Source: Spirochaeta lutea (GTDB lineage Bacteria; Spirochaetota; Spirochaetia; DSM-27196; Salinispiraceae). From it: a stretch of DNA of 32,699 nucleotides. This document shows, piece by piece, positions 1 through 29,860 of this stretch. The DNA is taken from positions 1-32,699 of the forward strand of contig NZ_JNUP01000041.1 in the NCBI RefSeq assembly GCF_000758165.1, read 5' to 3'. The notes under the pieces were generated by a model. The model did no database searches, had not been told where the DNA came from, and was given only the letters and a program-made list of their open reading frames with translations. Within the stretch, counting starts at the first letter, position 1, and every line of letters begins with the position of its first letter. Position numbers and translations under genes: made by a program.

Positions 1-30
1 CTTCAAGGGTGGGGGGAGGTTTGTAAAAAG

Positions 31-50
31 TTACAGGGTTTTGCGCACTA
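31..50. repeat. Right end of a 105-bp MITE-like element, cut by the window edge
   Basis: The 20 bases TTACAGGGTTTTGCGCACTA match the right terminus of the full copies at 1554-1658 and 28780-28884, with small differences in the middle. The rest of the element would lie to the left of the window. It ends 34 bp before the start codon of the MFS transporter gene. Confidence 0.7.
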
Positions 51-1518: not shown

Positions 1519-1553
1519 AGAGCCCTGGGGCGACATAGTCGGTTTTGTTCTGA

Positions 1554-1658
1554 TAGTGCGCAAAACCTTGTAAAACACACCGGATATGGGGTAAGCAGAG
1601 AGTACCGACCCCAGATACAGTGCCGCCGACAGGGATTGTTACAACCTTTTGCGCACTA
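1554..1658. repeat. Full 105-bp MITE-like element, copy A
   Basis: The element starts TAGTGCGCAAAACCTTGTAA and ends TTACAACCTTTTGCGCACTA, so the ends are inverted repeats with 18 of 20 positions paired. Both outer ends are the dinucleotide TA, as expected for IS630/Tc1-mariner-type target duplication. The interior has no coding potential. It occupies most of the gap between the transporter stop (1518) and the next gene. It ends 2 bp before that gene's Shine-Dalgarno sequence. Confidence 0.8.
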
Positions 1659-1670
1659 CAGGAGGACTCC

Positions 1671-27571: not shown

Positions 27572-28165
27572 ATGAGAGAACGAACCTACCTGCTGAAAAT
27601 TCAACTGCTGGATATCGAGCCTGCCATATGGCGTCGGTTTGTAGTACCGGCAAGCATACCATTGGACCGACTGCATGATGTCATTCAGATTACCATGGGA
27701 TGGACAGACAGCCATCTCCATGAGTTCACTATAGGGAATAAGCGCTACACCGAGTATCCGGAATTCAAAGAAGACGGGCTTCCATGCGGTAGATATCGCC
27801 TTGGCGATCTTATCAAACAGAAGGGACGCACCTTCCGCTATATGTATGATTTTGGAGACAGCTGGGAGCATGAATTGACCCTTGAAGATAGCCGATACGT
27901 TGACCCTGAATTGCAAACCGAGATCAGTTGTCTGGAGGGTGAACGAGCCTGTCCCCCGGAAGATGTCGGGGGACTCCCCGGGTATGAAGAGTTCTGTGAA
28001 GCCATACAAGACCCGAATCATGAGGATCATGAAATGCTCATGAACTGGTCCGGCGGGAATTTTGACAGTGAGTATTTTAACTGCCACGAAGTGAATCAGG
28101 AGCTGATGAAGTTTCTTCGCTGGTCCAGAGACCGGTACCTGAACTGGGATCTTACAACCTTTTGA
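27572..28165 (+). CDS. Plasmid pRiA4b ORF-3 family protein
   Basis: The 197-residue protein belongs to the pRiA4b ORF-3-like family, named from an Agrobacterium rhizogenes plasmid and of unknown biochemical function. Family landmarks are the N-terminal LKIQLLDIEPAIWRRFVVPA, the LHDVIQITMGWTDSHLHEF segment, the FRYMYDFGDSWEHELTLE segment and ACPPEDVGGLPGYEEF. The gene's last codons and its TGA stop lie inside a repeat-derived 20-bp sequence at 28152-28171, so the C-terminus (LTTF) may be borrowed from a transposable element. The start at 27572 has a GGGAACGAA stretch upstream. It stands alone, convergent with the next gene. Confidence 0.85.
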   Translation: MRERTYLLKIQLLDIEPAIWRRFVVPASIPLDRLHDVIQITMGWTDSHLHEFTIGNKRYTEYPEFKEDGLPCGRYRLGDLIKQKGRTFRYMYDFGDSWEHELTLEDSRYVDPELQTEISCLEGERACPPEDVGGLPGYEEFCEAIQDPNHEDHEMLMNWSGGNFDSEYFNCHEVNQELMKFLRWSRDRYLNWDLTTF

Positions 28166-28171
28166 ACACTA
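28152..28171. repeat. Solo, diverged terminus of the MITE-like element
   Basis: TTACAACCTTTTGAACACTA differs from the consensus end TTACAACCTTTTGCGCACTA at two positions. No left end is present 105 bp upstream, where conserved coding sequence lies. It overlaps the stop codon of the pRiA4b ORF-3-like gene. Confidence 0.65.
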
Positions 28172-28759: not shown

Positions 28760-28779
28760 GCAAGCCTCCTGTATTTTTG

Positions 28780-28884
28780 TAGTGCGCAAAAGGTTGTAAA
28801 CTACGCCAGATATAGCGGCACAGCCCGGGAACCTACCCAGGGATGGTGTCGCCGGGGTGAAAAGTTACAACCTTTTGCGCACTA
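28780..28884. repeat. Full 105-bp MITE-like element, copy B
   Basis: The ends TAGTGCGCAAAAGGTTGTAA and TTACAACCTTTTGCGCACTA are perfect 20-bp inverted repeats with TA at each end. The length equals copy A exactly, while the interior is diverged. It fills the space between the YdeI-like start (28759) and the epoxide hydrolase stop (28889). Confidence 0.85.
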
Positions 28885-28888
28885 TGCG

Positions 28889-29860
28889 TTAGTTTTCGCC
28901 CGCGGCCGTTTTCCGCTGATCTAGCCACTCCAGGAGCAGCTGGTTCGTTGCTTCCGGCTTTTCCTGTTGGATCCAATGGCCGCAATCCAGGGTCGCCACA
29001 TCGACATTGGGTACGAATTCCCCCAGCCTCTCGAACTTCGGAATGCTATCCCGGCCGCCATAGATCATCAGGGTGGGGTGGTGGATGATGGGATCGGCGT
29101 CTGCCAATAGATGCCAGTTTCGATCCAGGTTCCGGTACCAATTAATGCTGGGGGTAAACCCTGTTGATTCAAAAGCGGAGATGAACACCGCCAGATCGTC
29201 TTCGCTCATGACCGGATCGCCCAGGGGGTGTTCTGCCCGGGCAAGGTCCATCATTACCATTCCCGGCTGGGGCGGGACCGGGGGCAGATTCTTCCGGTAC
29301 AGGTTCCGGAAGAACCGTGAGGTGTTTTCTTCCAGCACCGCGTCGGCGACCCCCGGCTGGCGGTTGAAGTGTACAAAATAGTAGTCCCTGCCCAATAGTT
29401 CTTCCAGGAGCTGGATCCATGGCTTCTGACCCCGCTCTTGGTAGGGTAAACTCAGGTTAATCACCCCACGTACCCGGCTTGGGTGTAGTAGGGTTAATCC
29501 CCAAACAACCATGGCACCCCAGTCATGGCCGACGAAGGTGGCATCCTGATACCCGTAATGATCAAGAAGGGCGGTTAGATCACCAGATAAGTGTTCAATG
29601 TCATAGTCTGTAACCTCCCTCGGGCAGGACGAATTCCCGTACCCCCGCTGGTTCGGGACGATGACATGGTATCCCGCCTCGGCAAGGGCGGGTATCTGAT
29701 AGCGCCATGAGAATGCATGCTCCGGCCAGCCGTGACAGAGTACAACGGGGTTTCCTCTATGTTCGCGACCTGCCTCGAAGACTTCGAGTTCCACGCCGTT
29801 AACCGATATGAGTGTGGGTTCGGGAAAATCCGCTGATGCGGTTCGTAATTTCCTATCCAT
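28889..29860 (-). CDS. Epoxide hydrolase (alpha/beta-hydrolase fold)
   Basis: The 323-residue enzyme has the full epoxide hydrolase signature. HGWP at 43-46 forms the oxyanion hole. The nucleophile is D113 in GHDWGA. Candidate cap-domain tyrosines are Y160/Y161 and Y242 (SINWYR). The acid is D271 in YGGRDS and the base is H295 in CGHWIQQEKP. The reaction is hydrolysis of an epoxide to a vicinal diol via an ester intermediate. An aspartate rather than serine nucleophile separates it from esterases; haloalkane dehalogenases are less likely given HGWP and the tyrosine pattern. The start at 29860 has AGGAG just upstream. It is divergent from the WYL regulator gene, which begins 84 bp away and probably controls it. 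Confidence 0.9.
   Translation of the reverse strand: MDRKLRTASADFPEPTLISVNGVELEVFEAGREHRGNPVVLCHGWPEHAFSWRYQIPALAEAGYHVIVPNQRGYGNSSCPREVTDYDIEHLSGDLTALLDHYGYQDATFVGHDWGAMVVWGLTLLHPSRVRGVINLSLPYQERGQKPWIQLLEELLGRDYYFVHFNRQPGVADAVLEENTSRFFRNLYRKNLPPVPPQPGMVMMDLARAEHPLGDPVMSEDDLAVFISAFESTGFTPSINWYRNLDRNWHLLADADPIIHHPTLMIYGGRDSIPKFERLGEFVPNVDVATLDCGHWIQQEKPEATNQLLLEWLDQRKTAAGEN

Follow-up and report, generated by a model that had tools for sequence, protein, structure and literature searches.

Two described families of short bacterial repeats resemble the element analyzed here. The Correia elements (NEMIS) of Neisseria are approximately 107 bp long, have long TIRs ending in TA, and are present in high copy number at mostly intergenic sites, and in all four respects the repeat of the spirochaete Spirochaeta lutea is similar to them (PMC2229807). 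However, the two sequences are unrelated by eye, and whereas in the Correia elements the TA is counted with the target, a 9-bp duplication here lies outside two further bases. MITEAba12 of Acinetobacter is 111-114 bp long and has 9-bp target duplications that are recognisable in only 40% of its copies; it is thus of similar size, makes duplications of the same length, and likewise has TIRs in common with a co-resident insertion sequence (IS), ISAba12 (PMC6382973). It differs in its GGCTTTGTTGCA-type ends, its AT-rich core and the ISAba12 transposase, which is of another kind, whereas the repeat studied here has 20-bp ends plus two variable outer bases. MITEAba12 is therefore the closest published analogue in mechanism, and the Correia elements are the closest in appearance. 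A literature search for MITEs in this spirochaete lineage found no paper.

The stretch of DNA analyzed (the window; 32,699 bp) is the whole of contig C38 in a draft genome of 3.53 Mb. Reading of the sequence places two copies at 1554-1658 (A) and 28780-28884 (B), each of 105 bp with TA at both termini and with 20-bp TIRs (TAGTGCGCAAAAGGTTGTAA) that show two mismatches in the left end of copy A; both lie precisely at the positions given in the initial annotation. Six ends with no more than three mismatches are present in the window, compared with 0.00 in shuffled sequences, and these are the ends of copies A and B together with those at 31-50 and 28152-28171, the last of which is absent from the initial annotation (Table 1). 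Genome-wide there are 312 ends with two or fewer mismatches and none in a reversed control, and a sequence model trained on 29 copies identifies at least 150 elements at E ≤ 3e-13, approximately one per 23 kb. The length is exactly 105 bp in 108 of the 148 copies extracted and 106 bp in another 26 (134/148 together), in agreement with the constant length noted initially; the interior, in contrast, is not free to vary as had been supposed, with column conservation of 93-94% in the TIRs, 86% at positions 21-39, 79% at 66-85 and 67% at 40-65. Subfamilies are visible in the interiors, and the median identity between nearest neighbours is 89%. Exact-match searches found no full element in collections of genome contigs and viral contigs and no exact end in 60 relatives, none of them congeneric; the bare 18-mer has four scattered single matches in an 84,980-species collection, about the number expected by chance.

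Table 1. Coordinates of repeat-associated features in the window.
Feature	Coordinates	Strand	Remarks
Copy A mobile unit, 109 bp	1552..1660	+	E 1.5e-18
Copy A terminal dinucleotides	1552-1553, 1659-1660		GA, CA
Copy A TIRs	1554-1573, 1639-1658		
Copy A expected left target copy	1543..1551	.	TTTTGTTCT; 1/9 match to right copy
Copy A expected right target copy	1661..1669	.	GGAGGACTC; overlaps ribosome-binding site of next gene
Copy B mobile unit, 109 bp	28778..28886	+	E 2e-29; best-scoring copy
Copy B terminal dinucleotides	28778-28779, 28885-28886		TG, TG
Copy B TIRs	28780-28799, 28865-28884		Both perfect
Copy B left 9-bp target copy	28769..28777	.	CTGTATTTT; 6/9 match
Copy B right 9-bp target copy	28887..28895	.	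CGTTAGTTT; 6/9 match
Solitary end	28152..28171	-	TTACAACCTTTTGAACACTA; partnerless
Probable right end of autonomous IS	1..50	-	...AAAAAGTTACAGGGTTTTGCGCACTA; cut by contig start

Both complete copies lie close to gene signals, as had been pointed out. Copy A starts 35 bp past the stop codon at 1518, and its end lies 1 bp ahead of an AGGAGG; copy B starts approximately 10 bp away from an AGGAGG on the minus strand, and 4 bp separate its end from the stop codon of the adjacent minus-strand gene. If copy B and its duplication are removed, the gap between the two minus-strand genes is approximately 10 bp, so that this copy is probably transcribed between them and could affect the resulting mRNA. 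The TGA of the solitary end is the stop of the reading frame at 27572-28165, so that the C-terminal end of this gene may have been remodelled by a decayed copy. A third end ahead of the first gene, listed in the initial annotation, is present at 31-50, but it is probably an IS end rather than a MITE copy: window bases 1-50 have a local score of 25-26 against the IS ends described below and 18 against the MITE consensus end, and as judged from this comparison it probably belongs to the same autonomous IS that is found at four contig edges. Elsewhere in the sequences searched there are pairs of ends in the same orientation 28 bp apart (L239 240-287, GTTACAGGCTTTTGCGCACTA then TTACAGGCTTTTGAGCGCTA; L012 1390-1437), which suggests aberrant or one-ended events, and head-to-tail MITE pairs with 3-13 bp spacing (L122 1201-1421; L082 1200-1399), the spacer of the L122 pair holding a 9-mer that resembles the left target copy.

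To define the boundaries of the element, we compared the flanking columns of the 148 copies one by one. A single offset is conspicuous (lag 14, combined z = 20; ≤5 at every other lag), at which positions -11 to -3 match +3 to +11, a direct repeat of 9 bp. Identity at the nine repeat positions is 59-74%, falling to 22-28% at positions just beyond, and 861 of 1332 positions match compared with 457 ± 16 when left and right flanks are paired by shuffling (5000 shuffles, maximum 511). The target consensus, WAANNNTTW, is palindromic and AT-edged. Two variable bases separate the TA from the repeat, and these terminal dinucleotides are common to nearest relatives in 41-75% of cases and to random pairs in 15-17%, showing that they travel with the element. 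As these bases are inherited, the unit that moves spans 109 bp and duplicates 9 bp of target; the TA lies inside the element end and is not, as first proposed, a duplicated target. A comparison of disrupted genes is blind to this distinction because removal of 9 bp and of TA shift the reading frame equally.

The duplications are not equally well preserved. At least six of nine positions match in 90 of the 148 copies, compared with 5% of random pairs, and there is no clear repeat in the 46 copies with four or fewer matches; that of copy A is not recognisable, with its two sides matching at 1/9 positions. The mean flank match is 6.8 for copies with zero end mismatches and 5.2 for those with five or more, which is what gradual decay of the repeats over time would produce. 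Ectopic recombination was considered as the origin of the repeat-less copies and rejected, since cross-matches number 12 where 13 are expected by chance. A search for empty sites with joined flanks, in sequences that include no congeneric genome, gave two self matches only, both from copies beside another copy.

Related elements are present in two sister genera. A genome of the same family (G003) has a divergent 105-bp version with ends AGTGTACAGAAGCTTGTAAAAC and a similar interior (CACCATATTTCGGGG). Using a broader model we also matched the complete genome of a sister genus (G002; 3,782,798 bp), whose MITEs measure 131 and 141-142 bp, have AGTGCACCAAAGCTTGTRAAA at their ends and show the nine-position repeat in their flanks at the corresponding offset (lag 16 from AGTG, z = 4.3). 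In these sister genera the TA has a variable first base. The G002 genome also has eight pairs of these ends that lie approximately 1,397 bp apart and bound 1.4-kb insertion sequences, so that MITE and IS have their ends in common. These IS copies (L218-L245) are present in two orientations and are about 96% identical within one orientation, and the 398-aa transposase frame is intact in 8/8 despite the approximately 4% divergence. Two have perfect 9-bp repeats and several are without a clean target repeat; intact frames together with missing repeats could be due to selection, gene conversion or recombination.

In the genome containing the window, a search with the 398-aa transposase detects a homologous C-terminus at the edges of four contigs (38-42% identity). 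At three of these (C68, C28 and C60) the transposase frame stops and is followed by GTTACAGGCTTTTGCGCACT, and at the fourth (C46), on the other strand, TAGTGCGCAAAAGCCTGTAA adjoins the transposase C-terminus; the IS end beside the C-terminus has 2-3 mismatches to the MITE TIR. Homology searching with the G002 protein found no complete IS copy in this draft assembly, and we infer that the autonomous partner is partly present with its middle unassembled, as is usual for repeated IS in short-read drafts. Repeats of the partner IS are a likely cause of some of the assembly breaks, including that at the start of the window. An autonomous copy was also sought approximately 6 kb inward from eleven solo exact ends (ten contig stretches), and the ones inspected resemble MITEs that are truncated or decayed. 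The repeat thus has several of the features by which MITEs are recognised, with a short, non-coding core bounded by TIRs, dispersed copies of uniform length, a target duplication, and TIRs in common with an autonomous element, both in the G002 IS and in the end at the transposase C-terminus in its own genome.

Of 395 Spirochaetia genomes searched, 80 contain homologues of the transposase. In an alignment of twelve, a zinc-ribbon-like region is seen at the N-terminus, the DGFE and TD motifs are invariant and an RE segment is conserved in most, a set of motifs consistent with a DDE enzyme in which the catalytic residues can be provisionally assigned. None of the homologues matches a Pfam family above cut-off, and searches for relatives of the transposase in viral contigs, plasmids and the PDB found none. 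There are weak NCBIfam matches to the IS1 model (10/12 homologues, best 5e-8) and the ISL3 model (8/12, best 1.6e-9), and IS1 elements typically generate 9-bp duplications. However, the scores of the G002 transposase (15.8 bits against a cut-off of 100 for IS1 and 18.9 against 180 for ISL3) are far under the curated cut-offs, and the partner differs from both in having one frame of approximately 370-450 aa and NN-NAGTG ends. Many of the elements that carry homologues have (T)AGTG termini, and two further IS (L265 and L290) have perfect 9-bp duplications two bases beyond NAGTG (TAAGGTTTT and TAAAGCATA); the layout of the MITE ends is therefore that of the IS family.

We conclude that the feature is very probably a copy of a high-copy MITE moved in trans by a co-resident, apparently unnamed DDE-type IS that is distantly IS1/ISL3-like; the MITE family is new, and its mover most likely belongs to an apparently unnamed IS family. 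The mobile unit is gene-free and of the form NN-TAGTGCGCAAAAGGTTGTAA...TTACAACCTTTTGCGCACTA-NN. The transposase of the IS with nearly identical ends would bind the approximately 20-bp ends, cut two bases beyond the TA, and insert the unit where a 9-bp staggered cut opens an AT-edged WAANNNTTW site, leaving the 9-bp direct repeat, and the system may still be active. In favour of this explanation are the fixed length of the at least 150 copies, the flank repeat at one offset, the inherited dinucleotides, the related MITEs in two sister genera, the ends common to MITE and IS in G002, the transposase C-terminus next to such an end in the genome of the window, and the NAGTG ends and 9-bp repeats of other IS of the family. 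Counting against it are the absence of a complete assembled IS from its own genome and of an empty site from the sequences searched, the 46/148 copies and several G002 IS copies without a clear flank repeat, and the two positions at which the own-genome IS end departs from the MITE consensus.

The initial annotation offered two readings of the repeat, and the first, a non-autonomous transposable element, is borne out by the number of copies and their 9-bp duplications. The second, a structured regulatory or RNA-processing element that is selected between genes and is not selfish, is very unlikely. It would fit the intergenic position of 139 of the 148 copies (by a crude gene call), the strong fold of the TIR stem (-56 kcal/mol in copy B, z = -7.6), the partly conserved interior and the probable transcription of copy B. 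However, the TIR stem is the sole consensus structure, with a compensatory change in 1/19 pairs and no covarying internal structure, and we found no terminator within the element, no consistent promoter and no match in Rfam. Convergent and divergent gaps are occupied at 44:20, as expected if promoter-proximal insertions are lost. No conserved RNA fold was found in the interior, so there is no support for a dedicated regulatory role; single copies might still act individually.

It is highly improbable that the MITE is moved instead by the resident IS256-family elements. Such elements are present in several lineages, duplications of 8-9 bp are usual in this family, and their ends have TGTAAA and, loosely, GTGTACA in common with the MITE. 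However, the multi-copy IS256 makes duplications of exactly 8 bp rather than 9, as shown by identical 8-mers in five contig pairs; its ends show no significant similarity to those of the MITE (p 0.12-0.27), with one end of a second lineage reaching p 0.009 among many comparisons; and the matching ends sit on another IS. The IS256 elements found by PF01609 and PF00872 searches were therefore rejected as movers on both duplication length and ends. One of them closes the contig at 31401-32699, with a 412-aa Transposase_mut and ends GATTAAGCAACC / GTTGGTGTACAA, and seven copies are at contig edges, where identical 8-bp flanks pair five breaks (C22-C66, C57-C45, C63-C69, C67-C44 and C46-C43) and could serve to scaffold the draft. 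The second IS256 lineage (C48, L175; C53, L162) has one in-frame TAG and loosely MITE-like ends (TAACGTACAATATTTTGCGCAAAT / TAGTGTCAAATATCTTGCGTAAAT).

The IS630/Tc1-mariner-type MITE duplicating TA on insertion, as initially suggested, is barely credible: TA ends nearly all copies, and their high number and intergenic sites are like those of RUP or Correia elements (PMC2229807), but the 9-bp repeats at a fixed offset beyond the TA are not a product of TA duplication and refute this reading, the first TA base varies in sister genera, and the IS with matching ends encodes an unrelated, distantly IS1/ISL3-like transposase.

The MITE and its IS partner show that a flanking TA is not proof of a TA duplication before the outer flanks have been compared across copies. 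There is about an even chance that the partner represents a so far unnamed family of IS with a wide distribution in Spirochaetia, in which the outer 2-3 bases are variable and unequal between ends, yet inherited, and are followed by NAGTG and accompanied by a 9-bp duplication, and which has spawned MITE expansions in several genera, their ends diverging alongside the genera. A very abundant spirochaete repeat, with at least 150 copies, is now accounted for, and is tied to a transposase family that no Pfam or NCBIfam model recognises above cut-off and that is found in about one-fifth of the genomes searched in its class.
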